From Xanthostigma xanthostigma (Eukaryota; Arthropoda; Insecta; Raphidioptera; Raphidiidae): a stretch of DNA of 64,000 nucleotides. The stretch spans positions 38,714,401 to 38,778,400 of the forward strand of contig OY754465.1 in assembly GCA_963575645.1 (NCBI GenBank), read 5' to 3'. The notes beneath the pieces were generated by a model. That model was not told the DNA's origin and made no database searches. It saw nothing but the letters and a program-made list of their open reading frames with translations. The position numbers were made by a program, and so were the translations under genes. How positions within the stretch are numbered: position 1 is the first letter of the stretch; each line of letters begins with the position of its first letter. Below are positions 15,438 through 44,099 of the stretch, one piece after another.

Positions 15438-15882
15438 AAGCCGCTACACACGAGGCTAGAAATGCAGCTAGATTTGCGTACTAATTTTCTAGCGCTGGTT
15501 TTCTTGATTGCTGTTATGTGCTCTCTTCACACGAGACGTCTTTTCAAGCTAGTTTTTTTAATAAATCTGGTGTGCGCGCTGTGACAGTTCAAACATAAAC
15601 ACAGAGTAAAACGTGTCTGTTGTCTGACTCTGAGCAGAATGACGCCATGTTGGTTTGTGCGCGTTTGTTCAAAACGCCCACGTGACAAGATACTGCTTCT
15701 TGATTGGTTCTTGCTCATACCGAGCAAGGAAAATAGTCCCTGTTCTAATTTTAAAACCTATTTTGTGAGCTAGCAGACGAGCCCCCAGGACGTCATTTCC
15801 AGCTTCGTACCCCAACCTACTGGCCAGCAGAACTCCAAGCCGTGTTTCTAACAGCGTTTCTAGCCTTGTGTGCAGCGGCCTT
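15438..15882. mobile_element. MITE at the left edge of repeat A
   Basis: The left terminus 'aagccgctacacacgaggct' is mirrored by 'agccttgtgtgcagcggcctt' ending at 15882. The element is about 445 bp with no coding. In repeat B the right terminus is intact (near 29370) but the left terminus is missing, so the edge of the duplicated segment falls inside this element. Confidence 0.6.
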
Positions 15883-16257
15883 ATTATAAATGCAAAAGTA
15901 AGTTTCATGTGTTACCTTTTTACGCCTAAACCGCTGAACAGATTTCGATAAAAAAGAGATAGATTGCATTCAAAGAATGTTTGTCTTAAAAGACCTGTGT
16001 TTTAAAGTAGTATTGTAATAAAATGGAGTCGAAAGCTCCGCTACTGTTGTCGCTGTTGAGCGGTGCGCAGCCCCGTAAGGCAAGACTTTTTCATCTTAAT
16101 CGCGTATTGAGCCGCGGGTAGCGGCTTGTAAGAAATAAATGACCAACGAAAAATGCCACGTGTTTACGAGAACATATTTTACGTTTTGAATCATTCTATA
16201 TATAGTTAATATTAAGCGCTGGCGGGGAGAGACTGTCAATTTCGAGTAGTCTGGGAC

Positions 16258-16294
16258 GCCCTTGAACTTGAATAATATATTCAAGTTCAAGGGC
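16258..16294. repeat. Perfect 17-bp-arm palindrome
   Basis: The arms 'gcccttgaacttgaata' and 'tattcaagttcaagggc' are perfect reverse complements around a 3-base loop. The same hairpin is present in copy B (about 29740-29777) with one mismatch. Confidence 0.85.
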
Positions 16295-17640
16295 TCGGAG
16301 TACATTTAACCACCACTAGGTTCGTCATGGTCTACGTTTCCTGTGGAATTGAGACAGAAGATGTTACTGTTCTCTGGAGTAAAAAAGAGATGACAGTATA
16401 GTATCGTCTGTTTCGACTTTCGGTACAACAGGAAATATAATCTTGTTGAACCAATAAGCAATGGTGTTTTTTTTTCTTCTATAAATTCATATAAAATTTT
16501 CATAAGGTACATAAAAAAATGTTCGAGAAAATCGTTATCAATTTATTAATTAAACACATAGTAATAATTATTTTTCATAGCATTCCACACATGTGTAAAT
16601 GTTAATTATAACTGTTACTGTTTAATTAATAAAACAATAACGTTTTTCTCGAATATTTTCTTATATAACCTTATGAAAATTTATAGAGAGAAAAATGAAA
16701 ATTTCGAAAATTTTTGTTGTAAGTTGAAATAAAAAAATGCATGTACACTTCCAGTTGATTTTGAAGTACAAAAAAATATACCTCAGCAGTTTCCGATCGT
16801 AAATCTCGTGCTGAACAAAAAACTTTATAAACCTTTTTTTTGTTTCTAGTAGGATAGATGAATTATTCACTGTTACCACTTTCGGTGAACACACTGTATT
16901 ATAAATTTTTGTCTTATATTAATATTTACGAGCATGTGCAAATATATTATTCGAATTTTTTTTAGAATCGCAAACAGTATTATTATCGCAGGTTAGGTAA
17001 AATATTTGAGGTTATGTTGATTTTTAGAATGATCTCAGAAATGATTTCATCAATTTGCTGTTACTTTTTTAACATCTCATATAAGATTATGACGGACCGA
17101 GTGCCATAACAAGTTTCTGCTTGGATAACTGTGCTTCTTATTAAATTTTGTCTATACATTAATTAATTTATTTAGTGATGCCAAGTACCTTCTTAAGTGG
17201 GATCAGAACGTAAGAGGCAACTTAAATGCTTACACTGTTTGAGTTCGGGCCCATCTTCCTTTTCATTAAGGACCGTGTGGCTAATAAACTAACAATACAA
17301 TTATTGTTCCTTATAATGTCTCGCTCTTTCATGCATGAGATATTATAACCATTGATTTAGACAGGGCAGGAATAACATCGCCGAAAAAAAAAACTAAAGC
17401 AAGGCGCAGTTCGAATCCGCGCCGTAAATTTTATATGAAAACATCGAGTATTACTGTTTCCTGGATCGCCTGCACAGGATCTGTAGACGTTTGGGTTTTT
17501 TCGTTTCCTATTCGACGCTGCGCCGTAACTCTCGCTTTTAGGCTTAGTGCATCATCTCGTTGCGCTAGCTTTCCGCTGCCTGCGTTTTTTAAAATTCCAA
17601 AGATATTTGCGAGTCATACGAAACGATATCTAAAGCGCCC

Positions 17641-17966
17641 TGTAAACGATCAAATTTGTTTGTCAAACTTTATGTTTTCATCAAACAATAGCTTAAACGA
17701 CCAAACCAAAGATCAAACTTTGTCTTTGCTCGTCGTTTCGGTGTTCTCTAATAATATTATCTTCCACGCTGCTTTCACTAGGCGTAGTGTCCGCCATGAT
17801 TGCAAGGCGACGAAAGATCTTGTTTGACAAACACCGCCGTCAATCCAGATTTCCATCAAATGCGTCAAACACGTAGGTTGTTTGGTGAAACGCGTCAAAC
17901 AAAGCTGAACACTATCAAATGGTTTGACAAACACGTAAAATTCGACAAACAATTTGATCGTTTACA
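17641..17966. mobile_element. MITE rich in tttgtttgtc/gacaaac motifs
   Basis: The left end 'tgtaaacgatcaaatttgtt' is mirrored by 'caatttgatcgtttaca' ending at 17966. Many internal direct and inverted 'gtttgac'/'gtcaaac' words are present. In repeat B the matching copy (from about 31912) has lost its right terminus and breaks off at about 32232. Confidence 0.6.
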
Positions 17967-19740
17967 CACAAAAAACCACCGCCCCTGCGCTCATTAAAAA
18001 TTTCAGTCACCCCCACCCTCGCGAAGGGAGGCGGTGTTTTTTTTATGTTTAATCGATGACCCTTCCTAAACCAAACCGCTTTTACCTCTCGTAATTTTCT
18101 GCGTTAGGTCGTTGTTTAGGCCTAAAAATTTAATGGGAAACCGATTTTTGACATGGATTTTAGGGGATGAGGAAGATCCGTATAAGAAACAATTTCGGAT
18201 AAAAGTTTGATACTTCTCTTCGGAGAATCATAATCCGTGAGAAAAAATGTGGGTTGCCATTTGAAATGTTAGATTATCTCCCACTTCCTGCGAGGGGGTG
18301 AACTTTGTGTGTCAACGATTGAACCTTCCAAGTTGGGCAACTTTAGTTCAAACTTTTTTCACAAAAACTTACCCTTCAGAAAATTTCGAACCTTTGCCGG
18401 ACCCTGCATATTTCTTCGCGTAGCCACAAAGGAATCGAAAGTCAAAAACATTACAATATAAGTGGGTAGTATAAAATAAAATATGTAATTGATAACAATG
18501 TTACAATAAGTAATTAAAAAGCGACGAGTATATGGACAAGCAATTATTAAAAAGTGTTTTACGAATGATTTTGAATAACCTCACGAGACATATCGAGATA
18601 TTTTAATAATCTAATAGCAATTTTTCCCATCTCTAGCCGATATAAATTTTGTTCAAGTTTCAGTTAGTTTTTAACAGTTTTATAACAAACCGGGCTATAT
18701 TTTATGTTATATAAGAACGTATACAAGTTTCAATGAGATTTAATCCTTTGAATGAAAAATTTATATACTCATTTTATCAACATTTCTTAAAGAAAACTTA
18801 ATTCTATTAGAGTGAACTTTGTAACGCTAGCATGACAACAGTTTTCTATATGTTACACTGGCTGCAATGAGCCAGCTCATTGTTATAACGTGCTTTGATA
18901 TTACTGACTTTATTTTAAAATTGAAAACTGAAATAAAGTTTAAATTTTACAGCTTTCTCAAACATTTTTGAAACAGACAATAACGCCAGTAATATTTTAT
19001 ACGATAAATTACGATTCCCGACCACCCAATTATCTGGGTTCAACCAGTTTTATGTTTATTGTAGGTTAAATAAAATATTATTATCGAATTTATTAAATAC
19101 TAGCAGTCCGGTACGGCCTAGCCTGAATTTGTAGATTGCCACCATTTTTTTCGTCGACTTACGAAAAGCGCTTTTAATATAAAAAACAAAATTAAAAATT
19201 ATGAAAAACCCACGACAAATGTAAACGTTGTGATTGAAATATGATTAAATAAAATTAAAAATTAAAATTTCATTTGTCATAACGCATGTTCTTTTTCAAG
19301 TCCATAATGCATTTATGATTTCCATAGCTGTTTATGTTGCGTCTTAACTGAAATTCACTGTATAGTTGTTTACTTTTTCTTTTCCTCTACTCACAGTTCG
19401 CACAAATTAAACAAACTTCTTAATGAGTTTGTCATGTCTTGTAAACTATGTACGAATACCACCATGATAAATTAAACATTATTGTCCATGTCCTTTATTT
19501 ATTACACAAAATGGTGAATCCAAATATGTATAAGATTTATTCCTGCAAGTTCACGACAACCTTCAACCGTCCGTGACAGGCGCCACAATGTCATTTCTCG
19601 TTCCCGCAGGGAAAATCTTGAATAAAGATAAATAGTTTGTCTTTTCAGCACTTTCTCTGTTTAATTTGGAAACAGTTTTCGAATTTTTGATGTCTTCTGA
19701 TTAGTGTCATTCAAGAACAATGCCTTTATCCTGTATTAAT

Positions 19741-20376
19741 AAGGTTGATTCTCACGGTGCGTGATTTCGCAGACCTCCGGCACGAGACCGCGCCAACGCA
19801 CCGTGGGAAATGTGTTGTCCGTAGCGACGCAGACGCGTCCGGGGCCTTGCGTCCGATCTATAGTGAGGATGGAGCACGAGACCGCGCCAATGCACCGCGG
19901 GAAAGGTGTCCGTAGCGACGCAGACGCGTCCGGGGACTTGCGTCCGATCTACAGTGAGGATGCAAGATCGAGGTGCGGTGCGGACTCGTGCAGGTCGTCC
20001 GTGTCAGCGCGGACGTGCGACTTAACTTTGCCGTCGACAACCGTCTATGCATGAAGTAGATTGGAAACACGAATTTTAAATTTATTCCTAACAAGTCATC
20101 GTTAGCGAACTCAACGAAAGCAGAGCATAAAAATGTAAATAATGCATTTGATGCTTGCAATCGAATTAAAAATTATCTTTTGATCAAGTAGTGATGGTGA
20201 CAAATTAATATAGGACTTCAGTTGCAGCAATACAGTACTTTATCATTGAGAATTTTTGAAAAGGCAAACTTTGCGAACGAAGCGTCCCATAGTTCGTACC
20301 GACACGCACCGTGGGAAGAGCCGTGGAGCGGCACGTGATCGTCCGCGGTCGTCTGCGGTGCGTGAGAACCGACCTT
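19741..20376. mobile_element. GC-rich TIR element with internal ~100-bp repeats
   Basis: The left end 'aaggttgattctcacggtgcg' faces the right end 'cgcaccg...' mirrored as 'cgtgagaaccgacctt' at 20376. Inside are two tandem units of about 100 bp ('gagcacgagaccgcgcc ... cagacgcgtccgggg ... gatctatagtgaggat'). CpG-rich text stands out from the AT-rich surroundings. Frames on both strands within it are open only because stop codons are rare in GC-rich DNA. The copy in B spans about 33914-34547. Confidence 0.55.
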
Positions 20377-20767
20377 TGAGCTACGGTTCGTGTCTGAGCC
20401 TCTGAGGACTCAGCGTCGCGATTTACTACTGTTGCAAACTCGTGCTGGTAGCTTATAACGCTCTTTTGTGAAGTTGGATACCACAAGACAAAACCACGTA
20501 TGTTAAAATTGTTGATAAAGTAAGATTGATGACGATTCATTTTTGTAAAGGTCGATTCAAATATTATGTGTACGTAGATGGTGATAAATAATCATGTTCA
20601 CATCATGATTTTGGGCTAACGAATTGGTACAAACATTATATTCGCCCGATGTGAACACGATAAAGACCTGATACATGATTCTATATACAGTTGGACGTTG
20701 TTCTTTTTTAATTTTTAACCGACTTTAAAAAAAGAGGAGGTTATATTATATTCGACTGTATTTTTTT

Positions 20768-21800: not shown

Positions 21801-21908
21801 GCAGGTTCAATTTTTTTAAAAGGTTTTTTCTTAATGACGCCATTCCTGCTTTCAACCATAAACTGTTCAACTGAGAAATAAGATAGCTACGCCAGTTTCA
21901 ATTTTTTT

Positions 21909-21914
21909 TTATTT
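21909..21914 (-). terminator. Candidate polyadenylation signal of the channel gene
   Basis: AATAAA on the minus strand, about 175 bases past the stop codon of the channel gene and within an A/T-rich run. The position is reasonable for a 3' UTR, but such hexamers are common by chance in AT-rich DNA. Confidence 0.35.
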
Positions 21915-22087: not shown

Positions 22088-25000
22088 TTAATAGCCTCTG
22101 TAGCTTTCAATTTCTGTATAAATCACTTGCCGTGAGGCGGGGAAAAAATCCAACAAATAACTCCAGTCCGAATATTGCAACAGCAGAATTCTACTCATTT
22201 TAATAGCGCGGAACGTATAAGAATGAGGAGTACTCGGAAATAGACCCTGGCGTACTCCAAACGAAGTATCGCCATATAACATATCGATGTACGTTTCTTG
22301 TTGTCCTTTTCCTTCCGTCAACACGGCTATTTCACCTCGATGAACGAAATACATACAATTGCTGACAATTCTCTGAAACGTCACGTTGTCTCCTTCACAG
22401 TACAAAAACGGCTGCAACTTAGAAATTAGCTGACGCTTAAAGTCTTCGTGACACTTCGAAAAAACGTCGTGGTTTTCGACATGGTGACCGAACCAGGCGA
22501 TATTCAATGCCTCGTAGAGATAATAAGGCGCTCGTTCGACCAAATCTGGCGTTTGGGTGCCTTCGTACGACGCCCACAAAGTCTGGACGTATCTCCATAA
22601 ACGGTTCAATAGCGACGGTGACAAATTTTCTCTCAGTAAGCCGGCTTGAATCTTTTTCGCTTTCTGCGCGTACCTTTCTCTATCTTGAGTTTTAATTTTG
22701 AATATTGCAAACAGTTCCCCAATGATCAGAGCGACGACTACGTAAATGATAAACATTAGTATTAAATACAATATTCTATCGTATGGTTGTCGTGGTGATT
22801 CGATAATCACCGAAGTTTTTGCGAAGATTTTAATAGTGAATACCAAAGCGCAAACAGACGACAGCGCAGCTTTGCTATCGTTGTCTATGCAGGTCCTATT
22901 TGTGAGGTTTTGAAAGATCATCAGCGAATCGATAGACGATGAGATATAAAGAAATAGAGAACACATCACTATTGTGTATATAAAAGCTTGTACGTATAAA
23001 TTGGAATAAAGTTTTTCTTTTTGTCGTTTAAAATATTGCGCAAGGCAACATATTCTAAATAGTTTATTTAATCTGAGCCAAGTGAACGCTGTCCAGTTAT
23101 CTATTGCGATGTTGATCAATTCAAAAGGCATTGAAATAAAGACATCCAGCGTCAATCCGGAGAATGAATGGATGTAGTTTGAACGTATTTCTTTTAAATC
23201 TGTCACCAATTCTCCCAAATCATTCTCGAAAGTCGTGTGCAACTTGACAAATATATTTATCAAATATATAAAATCGCACGCGTACTGTATAATAAAAATT
23301 ATCATTGAAAAGTCTGCATAGACTTTTTGATAAACTTCTAAAAATAAATCGAGATAACATACCGACATTATAAAGAAAAATGTCCATACCTCGTACAACC
23401 ACGATTCTGGATGATAGAGGATACCTTTATCTTTCGTATTGAGCGTATCGTTTTGAGGAACGTATTTTGTTAAATTCAAATCCGACTCACCTTTCAAATA
23501 GTCTGTATGAATGATTGTCGAGAGACGAAAACGGCGTAAGAACTCGGGATAGTTTGATAATATTTTAAAAAAGCTCAACGCCTCAATCCTCAACATTTCG
23601 ACATTTTGAACGGCGACAACGGCAATTGTCTGCCTGATGCGTTTAGTTTCGTCGATGTTACCAAAAAAACTGCCGCTGCCCAAATAGGCCATCGTCTTTC
23701 CGTCGGGTCCGATCACTTCGACCGTACCGCTACACAACAAATACAATTTAGAATGAACATCATTGATACGCAGCAGCCATTCGTCTTTGGTCATCAATAA
23801 AGAATCCATATTTACCAACAGTGCTTCTATTAGACTTTTGCTTGCTCCCCGAAATACCGACGACTCTTTTAAAACGTGCCCGTAAACGCTGTACACTATT
23901 TCCAATTTTATCCTGTATCGGAACGCTTGGGCAGTTTCGTAGACGCTTTTGCCTTTCAAACGTTTCCAAATAAATTCATAATGCTTTATTATCGCGTGGC
24001 GTAGCTCCGGGTGTACTTTTTTCGAAGACAGGTGCTTTATGAGTGAAAACATGGACAGCTGAAACAATGCGAATGCTTTGTTTTTGATCGAAACTGCACT
24101 TATGACACTGGAAATGAAATAGATCTTGGCAATTGTTGAAAGCAGAGACAAAAACATAATTTCGATCGCTTTCCTGTCTAAATCATTGGGGTACGTCAAA
24201 AGATGGCTGTATGTGAATATAGATGTTATAGTAAATAACACGTTCACATAATTTACCCAAGTACATTTGGTTCGTCTGCAAAATCTCGCGAGTACGATAG
24301 ACGAATAGGAAATAATAAAGGAATAAATTACTACTAGAAATTTGCAGACAACAAAGAACGTGAAAGGAAGCGTAACATCGTTCTCTACTAAACGAATTCC
24401 CGACAACACTCGGTGCATTTGTAGAACTTTTGTCACCTTGATTAGGGTGCAAGGGACGCTTATTTGATTTATGTCGAATAATGTTAAAATAGATAAGGGA
24501 ACGGCTGAAAGAATGTCTCCGAGGAAACCGTTTCGTAAATAATATTTGAAAGTGGAAACGGGATGCGTAATGAGGATCCCGTTGTCGTCGTAGTACGCGA
24601 CATGAAATCTGACATAAATGTCGATGTACTGCGAAATATCTAAGAAAAGCATCGGAACAAAGCACTTGGACGTATGAAGAGGTGTCAGAACGTAAACAAA
24701 CGATGAAATTATCGCTAATGCGCATCTCGTTATTTCCAAGTATTTAATAAAAGTTCCGTTCGGGTGAATTGTGCAGCTGAATAGAAAATATTTGTAAAAT
24801 GTACGGTTTTTAAGGAAACAATAGTCGTTCTTTTCTAAATGGAAGAAGTTTTTGTCGTCTACTGATTTAATTTTCGAAAGGATACTCCAAGTCGGCGGCT
24901 CTTCTTTTATGTTACGACGACATAGCTGTTGTGTTTTTGAGAAGCTCTCGTACGACCATAAATAAAGTGCAATGTCCTCGTGAATTTGCGGGAATCGTGC

Positions 25001-28000
25001 TTGAATGCTTGCCAAACTTTCGATGGTTAAAACGGCCATCAAACAGCAGGTGGTTGTGAAAACGGTGTTGACGACCAGCTCACCTTGACACATCTCTAAC
25101 AACGAATAGACGCCGTCCGCGCCGATGATTTTTCTCTGGGAACCGCATATTATTACACAATAACCCCTCATTATTATTCTCATTTGTGTGCAGATCTCTC
25201 CCGCTCTGAGAACGCACGTGTTTGGCGGATAAAAAAGAAATTGAAAATAAGTTGACAGCTGGGCTATTTCTTCGTCGTTAAGACTTGCGAAGAGCGGTAT
25301 CTTGCGTATATAATTACCAAACATTTCGTATTGCATAACAGTCTCCAGTTCTGATGAAACGTTATTCAACTGTATTTTGTTTTCCGTAAAAGAAAAACTG
25401 TTCGATTGGTTAAAATGAAGACGGCGTGTAATTGCCTTAAGTATATGTTTGTATTGTTGTTGAGTGATTTTATGTATTACGAATAGATTTTTGACATCGT
25501 ATACAGTTTGCGCAAGGTGTTCCTTGTACGACGATACAATTATCTGTCTCGTTGCAATTCCGACAATGATGCGTGGAAATGCAATCAGCCAAACTATCAT
25601 AATTATCACTTGAATAAGGAGTCCCGGCGTTCCGTACATATGAAATGCTCTGTTGTCGGCACCGCATATTAGTTGCGTTGCGTAATACATGTGCTTGATT
25701 ACGTTATGCCGAATGTAATCGACGTTGGTCGGCGCTTGTTGTTTGTCAGCCATATTCCATCCGTAGTATTGAAGGTTCAACTGGGCCTGTGTCATACTGA
25801 GAACAGTTGCGGATATGTAAATGAAAAACAGTAAGAAGACGACGTATTTTATGAGACAGATACAATTGACATATTTCAAATTGCGTTTCTCGAACTCGTC
25901 AAAAGCCATACTGATTTTCCACATCTTGAGTAATTTATTGACTCGCGATATGTTGGTTATTATGTCTGACGGAACTCCGGTGAATGCGTACAGGCACATG
26001 TAAAAAGGACACGCGGCAATCACGTCTATTATGAAATAGAAATTATACACTTTGCTGTAAGCTATTTGTGTTACGTTAGTCAATAGTCGAAAGTCCGTTT
26101 GCGAATAGACAGCCGTTGACACCTGGACGTAAATGTCGAGAATCCAAATCACAGTTATGACGTTGAGGAAAGTGGGAAACCATGTCGGCTGCCCGGAAGG
26201 ATAAGCGAGCACGTAAGGATACAGTATTGCCAAAATAATAGTTAAGACGCCCAATGCAAGATTCCAAATATAAGAAAATATTGAATACGGTTGTAAGATG
26301 TAAGGAAATTTAGTCCTTAGGAAAACCATATCGGTTTCGAATTCATTTCTCTCTGAAACTGCTAACATATCGAGATATTTCGGAGGAAATAGTAAATATT
26401 TCGAACTGATTGAAACATTGACATTCGCTTTATTTTCTGTGCTTGCTTTTCTTTTTAATAGTTTTTTCGCAATTATTTTTATCCATTTTACAGTTTGAAT
26501 TCTTTGACTGTGACGAGTTTTCCTGTTCGAAATTAATAAATCCAACGCTTTGCAGTGATCGAACGCTACTTTGTATCTCGTTTTAACCGAATTTAACATA
26601 TCTCTGCATTGATCGGAATAATCGTTACAAAATGCGATAAACGCTTTTCTGGTTAGTATGATTAATTCGCAGTCAATCTGACAACGAACCGTTACCAACG
26701 ACTTGTAGGGAATAAATAAAGATGTCTCACCGAGCAGTGTTCCACTCGAAAAGCATATAATCGGCGTCTCTTCGTCCTCTTCACTTAAAATTTCCACGAT
26801 TCCAGTTATAACGTAAATTAATTTATCTTTTAATACATTCCTTCGGTAAATCACGTTTTTAGACGCGTGCAATTGTCGCTCCATTTTTAATGACACGGCT
26901 CTCAAAAACGCGACATTCATGTGTCTAAATAAATGCGAATGTCGAAAAGCGTCACAACACAAATCGAGCATAATTTCTTCCGTCAGGGCAAGAGTCGATA
27001 TTGACGCGAGATCGGAAATTTTGTAGTTGCCATTCGGGTACATTCTCCATATTTTCGTACAATTTTCGGTTATTTTCGATAATAAATCGTCGGAAATTTC
27101 AAAGAAGAACATTTTTCTTTTTATCCATCTGAACTCGAAAAATGCCAACTCTTTATTATAATATTCCCTCAAAACGGTTATCATCATCTTTCCAAAACTC
27201 ATACCCAGAATCAAAGCAAATGTTGTTACAGATATTATTACCGGCGCTACGTAATCTTTACCTTTTTCTGGCTTTGCAATATTTTGTGCAAAAGAAGTCA
27301 CCAAACTCGATGTTAGGTAAAGAGAATAGATTCCTTTAGATAATGTACATACTTTAGGAATATTATTGTAAGAATCATTTACTATTAGCGTGTTTTTATA
27401 GTGCTCGATATTTGAAATGTTACCGATTATCCCGGTCAATAAAATAATTACTGCTGTACTATAGCACGCGAAACTCCGTAAAAATCGATTTTCACTATTA
27501 ACTTCGATGAATTTTGTAGTATTATAAAATTGAACGACTCTTCGAAATCGCAAACAATGGTTCATAAACTGAAATCCTTGAAGCTTATAACGTTTGAGAA
27601 CGGATGAGAAAATTATATCCAATGGAAGAACTGCGATGAAATCTATTATGAGTTCAAATTTTGAATCGGCTGGAAATAGTGGAGTGTGTATCTTTTTCAG
27701 TTTTTTATAAAAATATCTCAACAAAACGTCCGACAGAAAAATCAAGTCGGTGACCACACGGATTCTATTATAGATTTCGTAGTATTTAACAGATTTTTCT
27801 GATTTGAAAGAACTGTAAATCACCAGAAAAAAGTAGATGACGGAGCACATTGTAGCTATTGTCAAAGACCACAACCAGTCGTATGGCCAAAATAGAACAC
27901 TCTTCCAACCCATTGATTTTTCAACGTCCAACATTATATTATGCGGTTGAATTACTGTGTTTTCTGCAGCACCGTCACTTTCTTCTTGAATAGTCTGTTT

Positions 28001-28069
28001 GACCATTAATTCACTTTGTGCTCTTTTAAGTTGCATTTTCTTTTTATAGCGATTGTGTACGTGCTTCAT
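22088..28069 (-). CDS. Four-repeat cyclic-nucleotide-gated-type ion channel
   Basis: A single uninterrupted frame of 1993 codons with start ATG at 28067-28069 (context CAAAATG; an in-frame TTG lies 10 codons upstream). Four modules each show S1-S6, a C-linker and a CNBD-like beta roll. Approximate residues from the ATG are: module 1, S1 61-87, S4 166-187, pore 245-267, S6 274-300, CNBD 375-485; module 2, S1 597-623, pore 785-812, S6 814-843, CNBD 920-1030; module 3, S1 1105-1130, pore 1270-1295, S6 1302-1330, CNBD 1400-1510; module 4, S1 1555-1582, pore 1734-1760, S6 1764-1792, CNBD 1865-1985. S4 segments are only moderately charged. Filters read TSFAQN, ICGADN, FTYSH and IFAKT, none GYG. One chain with four modules would form a whole plasma-membrane pore, as in CNGK/tetraKCNG. 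Ion selectivity and ligand gating cannot be assumed. It has no introns and lies between long direct repeats. It is the only intact gene here. Confidence 0.9.
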   Translation of the reverse strand: MKHVHNRYKKKMQLKRAQSELMVKQTIQEESDGAAENTVIQPHNIMLDVEKSMGWKSVLFWPYDWLWSLTIATMCSVIYFFLVIYSSFKSEKSVKYYEIYNRIRVVTDLIFLSDVLLRYFYKKLKKIHTPLFPADSKFELIIDFIAVLPLDIIFSSVLKRYKLQGFQFMNHCLRFRRVVQFYNTTKFIEVNSENRFLRSFACYSTAVIILLTGIIGNISNIEHYKNTLIVNDSYNNIPKVCTLSKGIYSLYLTSSLVTSFAQNIAKPEKGKDYVAPVIISVTTFALILGMSFGKMMITVLREYYNKELAFFEFRWIKRKMFFFEISDDLLSKITENCTKIWRMYPNGNYKISDLASISTLALTEEIMLDLCCDAFRHSHLFRHMNVAFLRAVSLKMERQLHASKNVIYRRNVLKDKLIYVITGIVEILSEEDEETPIICFSSGTLLGETSLFIPYKSLVTVRCQIDCELIILTRKAFIAFCNDYSDQCRDMLNSVKTRYKVAFDHCKALDLLISNRKTRHSQRIQTVKWIKIIAKKLLKRKASTENKANVNVSISSKYLLFPPKYLDMLAVSERNEFETDMVFLRTKFPYILQPYSIFSYIWNLALGVLTIILAILYPYVLAYPSGQPTWFPTFLNVITVIWILDIYVQVSTAVYSQTDFRLLTNVTQIAYSKVYNFYFIIDVIAACPFYMCLYAFTGVPSDIITNISRVNKLLKMWKISMAFDEFEKRNLKYVNCICLIKYVVFLLFFIYISATVLSMTQAQLNLQYYGWNMADKQQAPTNVDYIRHNVIKHMYYATQLICGADNRAFHMYGTPGLLIQVIIMIVWLIAFPRIIVGIATRQIIVSSYKEHLAQTVYDVKNLFVIHKITQQQYKHILKAITRRLHFNQSNSFSFTENKIQLNNVSSELETVMQYEMFGNYIRKIPLFASLNDEEIAQLSTYFQFLFYPPNTCVLRAGEICTQMRIIMRGYCVIICGSQRKIIGADGVYSLLEMCQGELVVNTVFTTTCCLMAVLTIESLASIQARFPQIHEDIALYLWSYESFSKTQQLCRRNIKEEPPTWSILSKIKSVDDKNFFHLEKNDYCFLKNRTFYKYFLFSCTIHPNGTFIKYLEITRCALAIISSFVYVLTPLHTSKCFVPMLFLDISQYIDIYVRFHVAYYDDNGILITHPVSTFKYYLRNGFLGDILSAVPLSILTLFDINQISVPCTLIKVTKVLQMHRVLSGIRLVENDVTLPFTFFVVCKFLVVIYSFIISYSSIVLARFCRRTKCTWVNYVNVLFTITSIFTYSHLLTYPNDLDRKAIEIMFLSLLSTIAKIYFISSVISAVSIKNKAFALFQLSMFSLIKHLSSKKVHPELRHAIIKHYEFIWKRLKGKSVYETAQAFRYRIKLEIVYSVYGHVLKESSVFRGASKSLIEALLVNMDSLLMTKDEWLLRINDVHSKLYLLCSGTVEVIGPDGKTMAYLGSGSFFGNIDETKRIRQTIAVVAVQNVEMLRIEALSFFKILSNYPEFLRRFRLSTIIHTDYLKGESDLNLTKYVPQNDTLNTKDKGILYHPESWLYEVWTFFFIMSVCYLDLFLEVYQKVYADFSMIIFIIQYACDFIYLINIFVKLHTTFENDLGELVTDLKEIRSNYIHSFSGLTLDVFISMPFELINIAIDNWTAFTWLRLNKLFRICCLAQYFKRQKEKLYSNLYVQAFIYTIVMCSLFLYISSSIDSLMIFQNLTNRTCIDNDSKAALSSVCALVFTIKIFAKTSVIIESPRQPYDRILYLILMFIIYVVVALIIGELFAIFKIKTQDRERYAQKAKKIQAGLLRENLSPSLLNRLWRYVQTLWASYEGTQTPDLVERAPYYLYEALNIAWFGHHVENHDVFSKCHEDFKRQLISKLQPFLYCEGDNVTFQRIVSNCMYFVHRGEIAVLTEGKGQQETYIDMLYGDTSFGVRQGLFPSTPHSYTFRAIKMSRILLLQYSDWSYLLDFFPASRQVIYTEIESYRGY

Positions 28070-28294
28070 TTTGTGTTCTTTATTTGTAATGTAAAACAAA
28101 TGTCTTTAATCTTTAAAAATCTTGACACGCCTGAAAATTGAAGTCAGTTTAAATAAAAGATAATCAACAAAATATACTCAATTATATTGTAAGCAAAAAA
28201 TTACCACGCAACAACCGTACGGATCCGTCGGTACATTGATCTTTAAATGAAAATTGACGATTTCTTGAGACGCGCTCTGCTGTGGTTAATTTAT
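28070..28294 (-). promoter_or_regulatory. Presumed 5' flank of the channel gene
   Basis: About 225 bp lie between the start codon and the fold-back MITE. I see no convincing TATA box plus initiator pair. Assignment as promoter region is by position only. An upstream non-coding exon beyond the MITE cannot be excluded. Confidence 0.25.
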
Positions 28295-28799
28295 ACCAAA
28301 GTACCAGATCCGCAAGAGCTACGTCATTTCAGTACTTCTAAGATTTTATCAGTAAATGAAAGCGGGGTCCTTTTTTGATATAACAGGCTCTAAAGGTACA
28401 TAAAACACGTGCTTACCTACGTACGCAATGGTATTATGCATGCATATGAGTGCGAGTGAGAGCATTAGATGATTTTTGACGACTTCGTGAAATTTGGATT
28501 GTTTGTTTATACTAGTCTATGATTTTAAGAGAGAATAACTCAATGGAAACAATTAAGCAACCTATACATTTCATGAAGCTGTAAAAAAAAATTCTCTAAC
28601 GCTCTCACTCGCACTCATATGCATGAATAATACCATTGCGTACGTAGGTAAGCACGTGTTTTATGTACCTGTTGTCTCTAAAAGCCGCCATTTTCAAGCT
28701 AGCAAATTGGCATACGTTTTTAACTAAATATTGCACATTTACTGATAAAATCTTAGCGGTACTGAAATGACGTAGGTCTGGCGGGTCTGGAATCTTGGT
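28295..28799. mobile_element. Double fold-back MITE upstream of the channel gene
   Basis: The outer inverted arms (28295-28358 and 28738-28799) share 'tacgtcatttcagtac' and 'taagattttatcagtaaatg'. A second, inner pair of arms (28395-28470 and 28598-28669) shares 'ggtacataaaacacgtgctt' and 'cctacgtacgcaatggtatt', almost perfectly mirrored. The total is about 505 bp, with no coding capacity. It lies just upstream of the channel start, so it may contribute promoter sequence or an RNA hairpin. Confidence 0.7.
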
Positions 28800-28954
28800 C
28801 TAATTGAAAACTCACGAGTTGATGTAAATCGTTTCCCCGAACCGTTTAGCATTAAAAATAGCGCCAGAACAGCTGTACCCATTTTTTGGCGAGGGGTAAA
28901 GGTTTAAGATGACCAGAGAGTATTTGTAGGTAACACAATACTAAAGTATAAGTA

Positions 28955-31900
28955 AAGACGAAGCTGGATTTGCCGCTAGATTCCTTGCTAGATTTGAGTA
29001 CTAGTTTTCTAGCGCTAGTCACACGAGACGTCTTTTGAAGCTTGCTTTGTGGATGGATCTGGTGCGCGCGCAGTGACAGTTCAAATATAAACACAGAGCC
29101 AAACGTGTCTGTTGTCTGACTCTGAGCAGAATAACGCCATGTTGGTTTGTGGGCGTTTATTCAACGCCCACGTAACAAGATACTGCTTCTTGATTGGTTC
29201 TTGCTTATACCTAGCAAGGAAAATAGCCCCTGTTCTAATTTTAAAACCTATTTTGTGAGCTAGCAGACGAGTCCCCAGGACGTCATTTCCAGCTTCGTAC
29301 CCTAACCTACTGGCCAGCAGAACTCCAAGCCGTGTTTCTAACAGCGTTTCTAGCCTTGTGTGCAGCGGCCTTATTATAAATGCAAAAGTAAGTTTCATGT
29401 GTTACCTTTTTACGCCTAAACCGCTAAACAGATTTCGATAAAAAAGAGATAGATTGCATTCAAAGAATGTTTGTCTTAAAAGGCCTGTGTTTTAAAGTAG
29501 TATTGTAATAAAATGGAGTCGAAAGCTCCGCTACTGTTGTCGCTGTTGAGCGGTGCGCAGCCCGTAAGGCAAGACTTTTTCATCTTAATCGCGTATGGAG
29601 CCGCGGGTAGCGGCTTGTAAGAAATAAATGACCAACGACAAATGCCACGTGTTTACGAGAACATATTTTACGTTTTGAATCATATAGTTAATATTAAGCG
29701 CTGGCGGGGAGAGACTGTCAATTTCGAGTAGTCTGGGACGCCCTTAAACTTGAATAATATATTCAAGTTCAAGGGCTCGGAGTACATTTAACCACCACTA
29801 GGTTCGCCATGGTCTACGTTTCCTGTGGAATTGAGACAAAAGATGTTACTGTTCTCTAGAGTAAAAAAGAGATGACAGTATAGTATCGTCTGTTTCGACT
29901 TTCGGTACCACAGGAAATATAATCTTGTTGAACCAATAAATATAAATTCATATAAAATTTTCATAAAGTACATAAATCGTTATCAATTTATTAATTAAAC
30001 ACACAGTAATAATTATTTTTCATAGCATTCCACACATGTGTAAATGTTAATTATAACTATTACTGTTTAACTAATAAAACAATAACGTTTTTCTCGAATA
30101 TTTTCTTATGTAACCTTATGAAAATTTATAGAGAGAAAAATGAAAATTTCGAAAATGCATGTTGTTATTTGAAATAAAAAAATGCATGTACACTTCCAGT
30201 TGATTTTGAAGTATAAAAAAATATACCTCAGCAGTTTCCGATCGTAAATCTCGTGCTGAACAAAAAACTTTATAAACTTTTTTTTGTTTCTAGTAGGATA
30301 GATGAATTATTCACTGTTACCACTTTCGGTGAACACACTGTATTATAAATTTTTGTCTTATATTAATATTTACGAGCATGTGCAAATATATTATACGAAT
30401 TTTTTTTTAGAATCGCAAACAGTATTATCGCAGGTTAGGTAAAATATTTGAGGTTATGACTCAGGCCCATAGCCAGGAATTCTTTTCGGGGGGGGGGGGG
30501 CCTGAGGTCGAAAAGCAAATATCGATTTTTTTTAATGAAACGCTGACGTTGCGTGCAGTGCACTGTCAGTTTAACGATTTTTTTCATATTATACATGTCA
30601 TGCAAGTTGGAATATTGTTAATATGTGTTGAGAATAAGTCACGTGAAAAAAGCGTTTTGTTTTTTATAAAATTACGTATATTTAATTATGTTCCCTAATC
30701 CCTTGGAAAATATGTATTTGTAAGGAACATTATGCAAATGGCGGGGTACAACATTTGAGTATATTATTACTGTCAAGACAGTACTTACTTTACGGATCTC
30801 GTGGTTTTTCATTTAATTTCGGTATCAAAATTAAAAATTCATATGTTTTATTTGTTTGTAATATTGGTCGGAAATCGGAATGTTAAGTCAAGATTTATTG
30901 GCTCCATATAATATATGTCAAATTTATAAGATTATTTTTTTAGCAACGTAATGCGAAATAAGAACAAAGAAACACAGTTTATGCTGTACGAATATAATAT
31001 TATATTGAATTCATTTTCAATGTACTTCGTCATTAACTAACGAGACAGCAAGTGAAGAAGTAAAAACTAAAATTAAATAATTCTAAATTAAAACGACTTA
31101 TATTACTTCAATTCCCTTAATCCTCCAACGTTTATTTATCATATTATTAAATATACAAGCATTAAATATTAAAATAATTTGCTTACCGTCGAACGAAAAT
31201 TCACAAAAATTGGGATATCACTAAAAAACCTATTTCATGAAAAAACATAAACAAGCTATTTCTAGGATTTCGGGGGGGGGGCGGGCCCCCTGTGCCCCCT
31301 CCCTGGCTACGTGCCTGCGTTATGTTGATTTTTAGAATGATCTCAGAAATGATTTCATCAATTTGCTGTTACTTTTTTAACATCTCATATAAGATTATGA
31401 CGGACCGAGTGCCATAACAAGTTTCTGCTTGGATTACTGTGCTTCTTATTAAATTTTGTCTACATTAATTAATTTATTTAGTGATGCCAAGTACCTTCTT
31501 AAGTGGGATCAGAACGTAAGAGGCAACTTAAAAGCTTACACTGTTTAAGTTCGGGCCCATCTTCCTTTTCATTAAGAACCGTGTGGCTAATAAACTAACA
31601 ATACAATTATTGTTCCTTATAATGTCTTGCTCTTTCATGCATGAGATATTATAACCATTGACTTAGACAGGGCAGGAATAACATCGCCGAAAAAAAACTA
31701 AAGCAAGGTCCAGTTCGGATCCGCGCCGAACATTTTTTTTTTATCGCCCTCACAGGATCCGTAAACGTTTGGGTTTTTTCGTTTTCTATTCGACGCTGCC
31801 GTAACTCTAGCTTTTAGACTTAGTGCATCTCGTTGCGCTAGCTTTACGCTGCCTGCGTTTTTTAAAATTCCAAAGATATTTGCGAGTCATACGAAACGAT

Positions 31901-34900
31901 ATCTAAAGCGCCCTGTAAACGATCAAATTTGTATGACAAATTTGCTTGACAAATTTGTTTGTCAAACTTTACGTTTTCATCAAACAATAGCTTAAACGAC
32001 CAAACCAAAGGTCAAACTTTGTCTTTGCTCGTCGTTTCGGTTTTCTCTAATAATATTATCCTCCACGCTGCTTTCACTAGGCGTAGTGTCCGCCATGATT
32101 GCAAGGCGACGACTGATCTTGTTTGACAAACACCGCCGTCATTCCAGATTTCCATCAAATGCGTCAAACACGTAGGTTGTTTGATCAAACGCGTCAAACA
32201 AAGCTGAACACTATCAAATGGTTTGACAAACATGTTCGATGACCCTTCCTAAACCAAACCGCTTTTACCTCTCGTAATTTTCTGCGCTAGGTCGTTGTTT
32301 AGGCCTAAAAATTTAATGGGAAACCGATTTTTGACATGTATTTTAGGAGATGAGGAAGCTTCGTATAAAAAAAAATTTCGGATAAAAGTTTGATACTTCT
32401 CTTCGGAGAATCATAATCCGTGAGAAAAAATGTGGGTTGCCATTTGAAATGTTAGATTATCTCCCACTTCCTGCGAGGGGGTGAACTTTGTGTGTCAACG
32501 ATTGAACCTTCCAAGTTGGGCAACTTTAGTTCAAACTTTTTTCACAAAAACTTACCCTTCAGAAAATTTCGAACCTTTGCCGGACCCTGCATATTTCTTC
32601 GCGTAGCCACAAAGGAATCGAAAGTCAAAAACATTACAATATAAGTGGGTAGTATAAAATAAAATAACTAATTATTGATAACAATGTTACAATAAGTAAT
32701 TAAAAAGCGACGTCATATGGACAAGCAATTATTAAAAAGTGTTTTACGAATGATTTTGAATAACCTCACGAGACATATCGAGATATTTTAATAATCTAAT
32801 AGCAATTTTTCCCATCTCTAGCCGATATAAATTTTGTTCAAGTTTCAGTTAGTTTTTAACAGTTTTATAACAAACGGGGCTATATTTTATGTTATATAAA
32901 AACGTATACAAGTTTCAATGAGATTTAATCCTTTGAATGAAAAATTTATAAACTCATTTTATCAACATTTCTTAAAGAAAACTTAATTCTATTAGAATGA
33001 ACTTTGCAACGCTAGCATGACAACAGTTTTCTATATGTTACACTGGCTGCAATGAGCCAGCTCATTGTTATAACGTGCTTTGATATTACTGACTTTATTT
33101 TAAAATTGAAAACTGAAATAAAGTTTAAATTTTACAGCTTTCTCAAACATTTTTGAAACAGACAATAACGCCAGTAATATTTTATACGATAAATTACGAT
33201 TCCCGACCACCCAATTATCTGGGTTCGACCAGTTTTATGTTTATTGTAGGTTAAATAAAATATTATTATCGAATTTATTAAATACTAGCAGTCCGGTACG
33301 GCCTAGCCTGAATTTGTAGATTGCCACCATTTTTTTCGTCGACTTTTAATATAAAAAACAAAATTAAAAATTATGAAAAACCCACGACAAATGTAAACGT
33401 TGTGATTGAAAAATGATTAAATAAAATTAAAAATTAAAATTTCATTTATCATAACGCATGTTCTTTTTCAAGTCCGTAATGCATTTATGATTTCCATAGC
33501 TGTTTATGTTGCGTCTTAACTGAAATTCACTGTATAGTTGTTTACTTTTTCTTTTCCTCTACTCACAGTTCGCACAAATTAAACAAACTTCTTAATGAGT
33601 TTGTCATGTCTTGTAAACTATGTACGAATACCACCATGATAAATTAAACATTATTGTCCATGTCCTTTATTTATTACACAAAATGGTGAATCCAAATATG
33701 TATAAGATTTATTCCTGCAAGTTCACGACAACCTTCAACCGTCCGTGACAGGCGCCACAATGTCATTTCTCGTTCCCGCAGGGAAAATCTTGAATTTAGA
33801 AAAATAGTTTGTCTTTTCAGCACTTTCTCTGTTTAATTTGGAAACAGTTTTCGAATTTTTGATGTCTTCTGATTAGTGTCATTCAAGAACAATGCCTTTA
33901 CCCTGTATTAATAACGTGGATTCTCACGGTGCGTGATTTCGCAGACCTCCGGCACGAGACCGCGCCAACGCACTGTGGGAAATGTGTAGTCCGTAGCGAC
34001 GCAGACGCGTCCGGGGCCTTGCGTCCGATCTATAGTGAGGATGGAGCACGAGACCACGCCATGCACCGCGGGAAAGGTGTCCGTAGCGACGCAGACGCGT
34101 CCGGGGCCTTGCGCCCGATCTATAGTGAGGATGCAAGATCGAGGTGCGGTGCGGACTCGTGCAGGTCGTCCGTGTCAGCGCGGACGTGCGACTCAACTTT
34201 GCCATCGACAAACGTCTATGCATGAAGTAGATTGGAAACACTAATTTATATTTATTCTTAACGAGTCATCGTTAGCGAACGCAACGAAAGCAGAGTATAA
34301 AAATGTAAATAATGCATTTGATGCTTGCAATCGAATTAAAAATTATCTTTTGATCAAGTAGTGATTTTGACAAATATTAATATAGGACTTCAGTTGCAGC
34401 AATACAGTACTTTATCATTGAGAATTTTTGAAAAGGCAAACTTTGCGAACGAAGCGTCCCACAGCTCGTACCGACACGCACCGTGGGATGAGGCGTGGCG
34501 CGGCACGTGATCGTCCGCGGTCGTCTGCGGTGCGTGAGAACCGACCTTTGAGCTACGGTTCGTGTCTGAGCCTCTGAGGACTCAGCGTCGCGATTTACTA
34601 CTGTTGCAAACTCGTGCTGGTAGCTTATAACGCTCTTTTGTGAAATTGGATACCACAAGACAAAACCACGTATGTTAAAATTGTTGATAAAGTAAGATTG
34701 ATGACGATTCATTTTTGTAAAGGTCGATTCAAATATTATGTGCACGTAGATGGTGATAAATAATCATGTTCACATCATGATTTTGGGCTAACGAATAGGT
34801 ACAAACATTATATTCGCGTGATGTGAACCCGATAAAGACCTGATACCTGATTCTGAACGTTGTTCTTTTTTAATTTTTAACCGACTTAAAAAAAAGAGGA

Positions 34901-35283
34901 AGTTATATATTCGACTGTATTTTTTGTATGTATGTCCGTCGATATCTTCGTCGGCTGTGAACCGATTCCGATGTTTCTTTTTTTATTTGATTGAGTATGT
35001 CTCAATTTTAGCGAAATCGGTTCAGCAACTGTTTAGAAAATTAACAAAAATTAAAGAAATATTGCAAAAGTTGTAGTTGCTCTTCGGTTTCAATAGACAC
35101 TAAAAAGTTAAAAATAAATTTAAAAAAATTGAATTTGAATTAAAAAAAGGGTCACTAAAAAGCGTAAAATAACAAAGTTTTGAGATCGGTGCTTATTTAT
35201 TTACTATCACGTTTTGTGTATTTAGGTATATTAATTTACGCTTTTTAGTGACTCTTTTTTTAAGGAGGTTCAATTTTTTTCAA
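28955..35283 (+). repeat. Long direct repeat, copy B
   Basis: Second copy of the repeat described for 15450-21815, in the same orientation. It starts inside the MITE whose left end is complete only in copy A, and diverges from A after 'aggttcaattttttt'. Differences from A include the hAT-like insertion at 30459-31318, loss of the right part of the 17641-type MITE and of the roughly 80 bases that follow it, and absence of the 677-bp insertion. The two copies bracket a unique segment of about 7.1 kb that is mostly the channel gene. Confidence 0.8.
30459..31318. mobile_element. hAT-like MITE inserted only in copy B
   Basis: Copy A reads uninterrupted through the site ('gaggttatgttgattttt'). In B the site is split, with GTTATG on both sides (30453-30458 and 31319-31324). 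The termini are inverted: 'caggcccatagccagg' against 'cctggctacgtgcctg', each followed inward by a G/C homopolymer run (12 Gs near 30490, gggggggg near 31272). Ends of the type CAGGC-TAGCCAGGGGG are hAT-like. The expected duplication is 8 bp but only 6 match exactly. No transposase coding. Confidence 0.7.
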
Positions 35284-36617: not shown

Positions 36618-37527
36618 TAATGGGTGTTTTTTTTAGAGGTATACAAGTTTAAAATGAAATAAAACACGTAAAAATAAGGTTGCTGGCCACGTTGTTGGCT
36701 TTGTTTAAAATATAATTTTATGCCATTAATGTTTAAATATGATTTCGGGCATATGGGCGCCACGGCTGGCTTGAATGAAGCGCAACCGGGAAGTCCAATT
36801 TTCGATCACTTTATCGAGCATCTGGGGCCGTATATCGCCAATAGCGCGGCGAATGTTGACTTCCAAGTGATCCAACGTCTGTGGTTTATCGGCGTAGACT
36901 AGTGACTTCACGTATCCCCAAAGAAAGTAATCCATAGGTGTGAGATCAAAATTTTGCGTTGAAAAAGAGGATCAAGCTGAATATTGTTTTCGGCCCATTC
37001 ACCGAACGTACGGCGCGCATAATGGTCACGCGGATTTAACTCTTGCACAAGCTGGATATTGTAAGCTCGTAAGCCAAGATCTTTTCGCAAAATCTTCCAC
37101 AACGTGGATGGGCACAGTCCCAATTGCTGTGCACGACAGCGTATCGACTCATTCGGGTCCTCCTCAACACTACGCACCACAGCAGCAATGGCATCTTCTG
37201 TGCGCACTGCATGGCGTCTTTGTGGATGCGTATTATCAACTAGAGTATGCGTAGTTCGAAAACGATCCATGGTTTTCCGAATAACTTGCTCGGATGGACG
37301 ATTATGTCGACCGTAAAATGGACGTAGCGCACGGTTAGTTTGGCAAACTGAACCATAATTTTCAAAATAAATTTGCACAATTTGCAAGCGTTGTACTGAT
37401 GTAAGTCTATTCATGATTAAATGGCAAAACATACTGACCACAAATCATCTGTCAACTGTCAAATTAACTGTCACTTGAAACGGTGTTGCCAATTTCAAAA
37501 CCAAACCTCCAAAAAAAACACCCTTTA
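36618..37527 (-). mobile_element. Tc1/mariner-type element, internally deleted
   Basis: The left end 'taatgggtgttttttttaga' faces the right end 'caaaaaaaacaccctttac' in inverted orientation, with TA at the outer edges as expected for the IS630-Tc1-mariner group. The length is about 910 bp. The transposase frame within is listed separately. Confidence 0.75.
36726..37441 (-). pseudogene. Mariner-type transposase lacking its catalytic core
   Basis: The first part (37441 down to about 36950) encodes an N-terminal helix-turn-helix (LTSVQRLQIVQIYFEN) and a second DNA-binding segment (SIRCRAQQLGLCPSTLWKILRK), up to the beginning of the DDE domain (RKIL). There the sequence jumps directly to the conserved LTP-MDYFLWGYVKSLVY segment near the end of the DDE domain, in another frame, and continues to a normal-looking C-terminus (HMPEIIFKH) at 36726. 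The deletion removes the first and second catalytic acids and shifts the frame, so no active enzyme can be made. Such deletion derivatives can still be moved by an intact relative. Confidence 0.85.
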
Positions 37528-38883: not shown

Positions 38884-39354
38884 TTTAAATTATTTGATAT
38901 TAGTACGGCTGTTATTTGTAGTAGAAAAATTAAATTAAGGTTGGATTGGGCAGCCAATTTTATTTAAAAACCATTTTTTTTTTTTTATAATTAAAATGGT
39001 ATCGTCATGTAATTATGCAATTTGTGAAAATATAAAATATATATAAACGTTTCGCTATTAATTAGCATCTTCAGTATATCTGAAATTATAAATATTAAAA
39101 CATTACAAAATTATTTTTATAATATTATTAGGTACATATATTACATGTATATGTAATAATATTATAAAAATAATTTTGGAATGTTTTAATATTTATAATT
39201 TCAGATATACTGAAGATGCTAATTAATAGCGAAACGTTTATATATATTTTATATTTTCACAAATTGCATAATTATATGACGATACCATTTTAATTATAAA
39301 AAAAAAATGGGTTTTTAAATAAAATTGGCTGCCCAATCCAACCTTAATTTAATT
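38884..39354. mobile_element. Long perfect fold-back MITE in BEL gag
   Basis: Arms of about 200 bp (38924-39125 and 39155-39353) are almost perfect reverse complements: 'ttaaggttggattgggcagc' against 'gctgcccaatccaacctta', and 'gtttcgctattaattagcat' against 'atgctaattaatagcgaaac'. A 13-bp direct repeat 'tttgaagaaagat' lies at 38871-38883 and 39355-39367, marking the interrupted gag site. About 40 bases at 38884-38923 lie outside the left arm and are unexplained. Confidence 0.75.
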
Positions 39355-42300: not shown

Positions 42301-44099
42301 AGTATATTACTGGTGCGACTCCACAATAGTGCTGCACTGGCTATCAGCCGAACCGAATTCGTGGAAAACGTTTGTCGCCCACAGAATTTCAGAGATACAA
42401 AGCAAAACAAATGGAGAGTCTTGGCGACACGTGTCGTCCGAAGATAATCCGGCAGATATGATTTCGCGAGGATCGGACCCATGTAAGTTATCACAGTCGA
42501 ACCTGTGGTGGAATGGTCCGGTCTGGTTGTCTAAAGAAAAATCACATTGGCCAAATAGCGTTTTTCCAAATATATCAGAAATACCGGAATCAAAGGTAAA
42601 AATTATCGCGTTACCGGCGATTAAACGTACGGATATTTTATTTGATAAATTTTCTAGTTATAACCGATTGATACGGGTAACCGCGTACGTATATCGTTTC
42701 ATAAACAATTTGAGAGACAAAGAGCATAAATTAACCGAATCACTTTCAGTCGACGAACTGGAAAGTAGCACGTTAAACTTAAATAAATTAGCACAATCAG
42801 AAACTTTTGCGGATGATATTTATTCATTGCAAAAAACTAAACAGGTTACTTCTACTAGTAAGTTAGCTTGTTTAAATCCATTTATTGATAATATCGGACT
42901 TATTCGTGTAGGCGGACGTCTGAAAAATGCGGACGTACCGTACGACTATAAGCATCCAATAGTACTACCTGCAAAACACACATTCACGAAATTATTAATA
43001 ACTCACGAACACAGAAAAAACCTACATGCGGGTGCTCAGGCTATCCTAGCTACCCTTCGGCAAAATTATTGGCCCCTTAGCGGTCGAAATACGGTCAGGT
43101 CTACTCAGAAAAATTGTATTGTTTGTTTTAGAGTAAAGCCTCGATATACTTATCCTCAGATGGGAAATTTGCCTATTGATCGCGTTAAGCCAGATCGAGT
43201 TTTTGCTAATTGCGACGTAGATTACGCAGGGCCGTACTTAATCAGAGACGGCAAAACAAGAAATAGAAAGCTCGTCAAGTCATATATTTGCATTTTTATA
43301 TGCTTTGCCACAAAGGCTACTCACATCGAACTGATTGGTGACCTCACCAGCGAGGGTTTTTTGAATGGTTTTAAAAGATTCGTTTCACGTCGCGGGTTAT
43401 GCAGGAATATTTTTTGCGACAACGGCACAAACTTGTGAGTTAAAGAAAGTGATGTATCTCTGTCATGAGCCTATTTTTCAAAATTTTTGTACCGATAATA
43501 AGATTAAGTTTCATTTTATACCGGCAAGATCTCCGCATTTCGGGGGTCTATGGGAGGCGGCTGTTAAGTCCGCTAAAATTCATTTAAACCGAGTTGTCAA
43601 AAATGTTAATCTCACTTTTGAAGAGTTCAGTACTCTATTGACTAAGGTCGAGGCTACCATGAATTCCCGACCAATCTCAATTCTTTCCAATGATCCAAAT
43701 GACCTGGAATCCTTAACTCCTGGGCATTTTTTAATCGGATGTGCTTTAAATGCCGTACCGCAATCAAACGATCAAGAAATTCCTTGCAATCGCTTGAATC
43801 GCTATCATCATCTACAACAGATGTACCAACATTTTTGGTCCCGCTGGAGTCGTGAATATCTTCACACTCTACATCAACGGGGCAAATGGCGTTTCCAGAG
43901 CTCCAACGTCAGCATTGGCTCTCTGGTCCTTTTGCGAGATGACAACGCTCCGCCAATGTGTTGGCCATTGGGGCGAATCATAGACGTGCATCCAGGTCAA
44001 GATGGCATCGTGCGCGTAGTAAGCGTTAAAACCAAGGGTGGTGTAGTGAAACGTGCAGTGACCAAAGTCTGCATTCTCCCCACGAATGAAGAGGAGTGA

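Follow-up and report, generated by a model that had tools for sequence, protein, structure and literature searches.

The 64,000-nucleotide stretch of the Xanthostigma xanthostigma genome analyzed here (the window) corresponds to positions 38714401-38778400 of contig C2 in a 623-Mb assembly of 28 contigs, and it contains one large gene, referred to as gene A, at 22088..28069 on the minus strand. The reading frame runs without interruption from an ATG at 28069 (start codon context CACAAAATGA) to a TAA at 22088 and encodes 1993 aa. An earlier note on this DNA had reported the open frame without stating its strand; the frame is present, and stops abound on the plus strand when it is read in that register. 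The frame measured 2003 codons, compared with 229 codons for the longest frame in 200 base-shuffled versions, and its openness suggests that gene A consists of a single exon. A possible polyadenylation signal, AATAAA, is located at 21908..21913 on the minus strand, 175 nt past the stop. We consider it rather probable that the product of gene A is a four-repeat membrane protein, with 24 transmembrane (TM) segments and four sets of C-linker and cyclic-nucleotide-binding domain (CNBD), which is of CNGK/tetraKCNG-type descent, belongs to a small expanded family, and has lost the K+ filter.

As the earlier note had proposed, four CNG-type channel modules are, by sequence, fused in the gene A chain, and each of them was recognized by phmmer among solved structures. 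Module 1 (residues 50-505; 26555..27922, minus strand) comprises S1-S6, the C-linker, and CNBD1 and matches CNGA1 7lg1 (E 1.4e-12). Module 2 (residues 583-1045; 24935..26323, minus strand) matches HCN1 6uqg (E 1.9e-10); this match is the weakest of the four and is made up of two weak segments, with the S5-pore part left out, and the module also matches HCN4 in a single stretch (1.6e-9). The best match of module 3 (residues 1085-1518; 23516..24817, minus strand) is SthK, which covered residues 1180-1514 at 5.4e-26 in the whole-protein search. Module 4 (residues 1545-1993; 22091..23437, minus strand) matches CNGA2 9upf (E 1.7e-21), and its end shares 36% identity with the database protein P0003 (392 aa) over 185 aa. 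The modules are mutually about 22% identical at most in long alignments.

The Pfam check suggested earlier gave a divided result: cNMP_binding was found in three stretches of gene A (1.7e-30), and no Ion_trans match was obtained in it at E<=1. Among four paralogous frames described below, Ion_trans was over the cut-off in B1 and D and not in C or the middle piece of E. In both gene A and B1, hydropathy analysis placed peaks on the S5 and S6 segments of each module; the peak totals were 33 and 34, respectively, with no clean 24. AlphaFold models calculated from 5-row alignments had a mean predicted local distance difference test score of 39.0 and 39.3 and were uninformative on the fold. NCBIfam gave below-cut-off matches only, mostly to bacterial CNBD-containing families, and Rfam gave nothing at gathering thresholds. 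The concern that fewer than four modules would be found was not borne out, the number by sequence being four.

The residues at the four pore filter positions were exactly those reported earlier, and each string occurs once in gene A. TSFAQN in module 1 (residues 258-263; 27281..27298, minus strand) was aligned to TTIGQT of CNGA1 7lg1 and TTVGYG of the database protein P0005. ICGADN in module 2 (residues 801-806; 25652..25669, minus strand) and IFAKT in module 4 (residues 1748-1752; 22814..22828, minus strand) were also placed by alignment, and for FTYSH in module 3 (residues 1285-1289; 24203..24217, minus strand) the register against SthK TTIGY and P0005 differs by one residue. Thus, none of the four repeats carries a GYG or GFG filter, and no TIGE is present at these positions, which belong to a chain of four repeats, unlike the single-repeat animal CNG subunit. 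The suggestion of an anion-like pore found no support.

Gene A is not a lone oddity but one member of a family. Searching the assembly contigs with two queries returned the same genes, namely at least nine further relatives of gene A in the same genome (A', B1-B4, C, D, E, and F), and these counts are lower bounds. B1-B4 are located within ~48 kb on C11 as four intact single frames of 2007-2021 codons from stop to stop, and they are mutually 89-96% identical. C (C11) and D (C8) were recovered in few pieces and E (C4) in three pieces. Aligned to B, C, and D, gene A shows 26-27% identity, and aligned to E it shows 24%. Gene F on C5, which the queries matched in short pieces, is an intron-rich four-module gene with matching exons over ~47 kb, which were hand-joined and predicted from sequence alone; a look through 8 kb of upstream sequence did not turn up its 5' exons (S1-S5 of module 1), nor was a second exon for its CNBD2 located. 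Upstream of the first F exon found, a frame of ~994 codons (C5 ~19,645,294-19,648,275) is presumably non-long-terminal-repeat (non-LTR) retrotransposon-like. Weaker matches on C1, C4, C6, C8, and C9 resemble ordinary CNBD channels.

In the protein database, a search that depends on shared 5-residue words matched P0002, P0003, P0004, and P0005 only. No protein named CNGK was among these matches, and given the word requirement, the absence of an orthologue is weak evidence. P0003 also has 25-27% matches to the fourth module of B1, C, D, and E, and the non-canonical NMIARMSDD occupies its filter place. In the module 4 phosphate-binding cassette, P0003 shares the His next to the lost Arg. Based on these likenesses, the family is probably not confined to this assembly.

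The near copy, A' on C1, is 97-98% identical to gene A in two halves and is broken by a 3.4-kb insertion, which is bounded by an 8-bp repeat, contains a 443-codon frame, and presumably represents a hAT-like element. Both flanks of gene A occur at A' with 92-94% identity, so A' reads as a DNA-level duplicate of gene A and not as a retrocopy; the earlier note had named a recent retrocopy as a possible objection. An old retroposition may lie at the root of gene A. A processed retro-pseudogene was considered and rejected, as the intronless frame is intact, the nonsynonymous-to-synonymous rate ratio (dN/dS) between A and A' is 0.26, and the flanks were duplicated as well.

Gene A is itself flanked by direct duplicate blocks of 5-6 kb, one at 15527..20766 and the second copy on the other side at 29019..34925, as determined by alignment. 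They have the same orientation and are 90-97% identical in three aligned stretches, and no frame longer than 162 codons was seen within them. Parts of these blocks also adjoin A' on C1. Directly upstream of the gene A ATG, at 28291-28803, an imperfect palindrome of ~500 bp resembles a small foldback element.

The loss of the filter extends to most of the family. Alignment of the 32 module pores of A, B1-B4, C, D, and E detected no GYG, GFG, or GET-type filter, and the sole GFG string in gene E sits in CNBD2, outside the pore. Gene F has such a filter in one of its four repeats: module 3 contains the canonical potassium filter CVGFGD within ATICVGFGD (longer stretch YWIAMATICVGFGDIHP), and it is placed between F's own module 3 exons for S1-S4 and the C-linker. 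The other F modules have partly canonical strings (HFRLGD in module 1, TTNLGD in module 2, and TTTGLLH in module 4). The filter residues at one module position vary between gene lineages. Across the five genes A, B1, C, D, and E, identity drops to 14-16% in the turret and P-loop, the lowest or tied-lowest value in each module, with the module 2 C-linker likewise at 14%, and it is 28-41% in the CNBDs. According to the available part of PMC7576140, most lineages of CNBD channels show strong conservation of the filter.

The module sequences were then compared in a maximum likelihood tree (444 columns, LG+F+G4, 1000 ultrafast bootstraps) that took in genes A, B1, C, D, E, and F, with B1 as the sole representative of the B genes. 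The modules group by position and not by gene: modules 2, 3, and 4 form groups with a support of 100 each, module 1 is split off at 99, and all four position groups include all six genes. Therefore, A-F all seem to come from one four-module ancestor. The pairs (A,B), (C,D), and (E,F) recur in modules 2 and 3 with a support of 74-100; module 4 follows much the same pattern, except that A joins P0003 first (52) and then B (50). The modules of P0002, from Phytophthora, join the A-F module groups without support (43 at best).

Whether this ancestor was a CNGK-type channel was weighed against an independent assembly of the four-module chain from ordinary CNG/HCN channels. The latter would fit the observation that the best solved-structure matches differ by module (CNGA1, HCN1, SthK, and CNGA2), and the module comparison was made without a CNGK sequence. 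However, the gene F filter is the potassium-type CVGFGD and not the TIGE type of animal CNG channels, and four repeats, each with six transmembrane segments (6TM) and a CNBD, with a cassette Arg in CNBD3 alone parallel CNGK, making independent assembly unlikely. It is thus highly probable, in our estimate, that the family descends from four-repeat CNGK/tetraKCNG potassium channels, and the earlier comparison with these channels is supported.

The Arg in question belongs to the phosphate-binding cassette of CNBD3 (residues 1467-1487; 23609..23671, minus strand), where it is R1480, and the usual Glu is replaced by Asn. CNBD3 is the only one of the four CNBDs of gene A that keeps the cassette Arg, and the residue is present at CNBD3 in all nine genes compared (A, B1-B4, C, D, E, and F). 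It is absent at CNBD1 in 9/9 genes, where A and D have Lys, at CNBD2 in 8/8 genes (F was not covered), and at CNBD4 in 7/7 genes (C and D were outside the frames read). The cassette Glu is kept in most CNBD1 copies. In sea urchin CNGK, one cGMP at CNBD3 gates the channel, as described in the available portion of PMC4749565. Nucleotide binding at CNBD3 in this family is plausible, though not assured.

Selection on the pore and the CNBDs was evaluated in the B1-B4 cluster using pooled ratios of nonsynonymous to synonymous differences (pN/pS). Pairwise pooling counts shared changes multiple times, and the site-based test given below is free of that effect. Each of the four modules has its highest nonsynonymous rate at S5-pore-S6. 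The pooled pN/pS was 0.11 for the CNBDs (range 0.04-0.26), 0.31 overall for S1-S4, 0.37 overall for the C-linkers, 0.88 for S5, and 0.74 for S6, and the turret plus P-loop reached 1.10 (1.34, 1.40, 0.79, and 1.28 in modules 1 to 4). The whole pore domain had a ratio of 1.02 (bootstrap 0.84-1.25) versus 0.31 (0.24-0.40) for the rest. When codon sites were counted as nonsynonymous-variable to synonymous-only, the pore gave 163:28 (441 columns) versus 102:83 (1552 columns) for the rest, with a Fisher p of 1.2e-10. Between A and A', the whole-frame dN/dS of 0.26 was composed of 0.48 in the pore and 0.17 elsewhere (Fisher p 0.016, from rounded counts). In the B1-B4 cluster, these comparisons show strongly constrained CNBDs and a near-neutral S5-pore-S6 region. 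Positive selection in the pore was considered and set aside, since the pooled ratio of 1.02 is not significantly above 1.

These data bear on the possibility of a working channel with a new pore, in which four unlike filters would form an asymmetric, perhaps divalent or non-selective, cyclic-nucleotide-gated pathway and paralogs would differ in selectivity. The hydropathy peaks at S5 and S6 in every module of A and B1 are in its favor, as are the ratios of 1.28-1.40 in the turret and P-loop of modules 1, 2, and 4 and the retained open frame of B1-B4, where three of the four indels fall in the pore domain and the frame stays open. However, residues at the same module position are unlike across lineages, the turret and P-loop are the least or equally least conserved part of each module, the filter is strongly conserved in most lineages of CNBD channels (PMC7576140, in the part available), and the pooled ratio near 1, with 0.79 in module 3, is as expected under relaxed constraint. 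We regard such a channel as possible but doubtful. The earlier claim of four unlike, non-canonical filters stands; a reading of them as four specialised strands probably does not, because the filters vary between paralogs and S5-pore-S6 is approximately neutral in B1-B4.

The same data also speak to the opposite extreme, a decaying pseudogene family made of CNGK relics that are being lost. A' is broken by its insertion, the filter is lost, the pore seems free to evolve, and a stop was found inside two short C-terminal matches, at C11:21990314 and C5:19596322, although the former had no stop by the second query. On the other side, no internal stop occurs in A or in six further frames of 1747-2021 codons (B1-B4, C, and D), and the CNBD pN/pS of 0.04-0.26 in the B cluster and the A-A' dN/dS are low. 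The stop-creating share of nonsynonymous chances in pore codons is 0.069, and B3 and B4 have ~199 nonsynonymous pore differences, so several stops would be expected if the pore frame were free. Decay of the whole family is accordingly very unlikely, and for gene A itself, a pseudogene or sequencing artefact is disfavored by the frame length and dN/dS. The earlier note would have counted a lack of orthologues under purifying selection in related species against the gene; as far as tested, purifying selection was found among the same-genome paralogs and between A and A', and P0003 is a recognisable relative.

Returning to the favored reading of a four-repeat protein of CNGK-type descent without its K+ filter, the chain would fold as a single pseudotetramer, and a cyclic nucleotide or other ligand at CNBD3 would move the C-linker ring, by analogy with sea urchin CNGK. 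The former pore would no longer be potassium-selective, and the protein would be a leak without selectivity or, alternatively, a closed membrane anchor that does not conduct and whose output is conformational; of these two forms, the non-conducting one seems slightly ahead. A more specific and speculative version is that the family would be a new class of four-repeat membrane proteins, potassium channels remade into sensors or recognition proteins coupled to cyclic nucleotides, in which the CNBD engine would be under strong selection while the pore and turret diversify between tandem copies. The diversified pore and extracellular turret might perhaps form a surface that gametes, ligands, or blockers contact.

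Several observations weigh against the favored reading. In 9/9 genes, the usual Glu of the CNBD3 cassette has given way to N (A, B, and C), K (D), S (E), or H (F), and CNBD3 may therefore bind nucleotide weakly or not at all. The pattern of constraint in B1-B4 is uneven, with ratios of 0.66 in S1-S4 of module 1, 0.79 in the turret of module 3, and 1.17 and 1.15 in the C-linkers of modules 2 and 4, the last two resting on 3 and 5.5 pooled synonymous changes. The pore domain has more synonymous divergence (dS, 0.151 vs 0.059); therefore, gene conversion of the cytoplasmic parts, or an unequal history, likely contributes. Because A' is broken, some of what separates it from A may be unselected. 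In the module 1 tree, A is placed with C and D (87), whereas its partner in modules 2 and 3 is B. The available part of PMC7576140 reports that CNGK repeats 1 with 3 and 2 with 4 group together; here, the groupings of repeats 1+3 and 2+4 are weakly supported (53 and 55), with a Phytophthora module inside the second. The case for CNGK descent is built on the architecture, the gene F filter, and the tree pattern.

Other features of the window include frames at 39319-44099 on the plus strand, in pieces, which we take to be BEL/Pao-like retrotransposon frames, and a minus-strand frame at 36911-37444 with a helix-turn-helix start that is presumably typical of Tc/mariner-like elements. A 120-bp unit is repeated in 9.5 copies with a 96% match at 47289-48423, open as a repetitive frame of >300 codons, and a minisatellite with 19/38/76-bp periods lies at 57915-58684, with three plus-strand frames open simultaneously. 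A bacterial or viral origin of gene A, considered in view of the SthK match of module 3, was set aside, given the 623-Mb assembly and adjacent frames that resemble animal transposons.

Among known systems, HCN channels are single-repeat proteins with a GYG filter, and their likeness to gene A is the best match of module 2 to HCN1. P0002 of Phytophthora (2760 aa) has fused CNBD-channel repeats as gene A does, with 21% identity over 12% of the query, and differs from the gene A family in taxa and repeat number. Animal CNG channels (CNGA/CNGB) have the same module fold and order, and CNGA is the best PDB match for modules 1 and 4; however, they are composed of separate subunits with a TIGE-type filter (PMC7576140, in the part available), whereas gene A is fused and its filter is lost. 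CNGK/tetraKCNG proteins of sea urchin, fish, ascidian, cnidarian, and choanoflagellate are like gene A in consisting of one chain with four repeats of 6TM, C-linker, and CNBD. Further likenesses are the conserved arginine, which in the gene A family sits in CNBD3, and the GFG filter that gene F retains. Published CNGK pores carry GYG or GFG, as far as the available part of PMC4749565 describes them; this filter is lost in A, B1-B4, C, D, and E, and, unlike in CNGK, the gene A repeats are only distantly similar to each other, with the pore domain as the variable part. A literature search combining CNGK/tetraKCNG with insect and arthropod terms, with subscription papers and preprints outside its scope, gave no account of an insect CNGK among the matches listed, and the family raises the question of a counterpart of the sperm CNGK pathway in the host group.

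Few parts of a channel are usually as well conserved as its selectivity filter, and here the reverse is seen in several genes of probable CNGK ancestry. Gene F, intron-rich and with one potassium filter kept, is a possible evolutionary intermediate, and the family may offer a natural series on the loss of selectivity and the retention of a CNBD engine for non-conducting work. The available part of PMC6259924 describes CNGK as having four nearly identical domains with no obvious specialisation; if the CNGK ancestry holds, this family contradicts that description.

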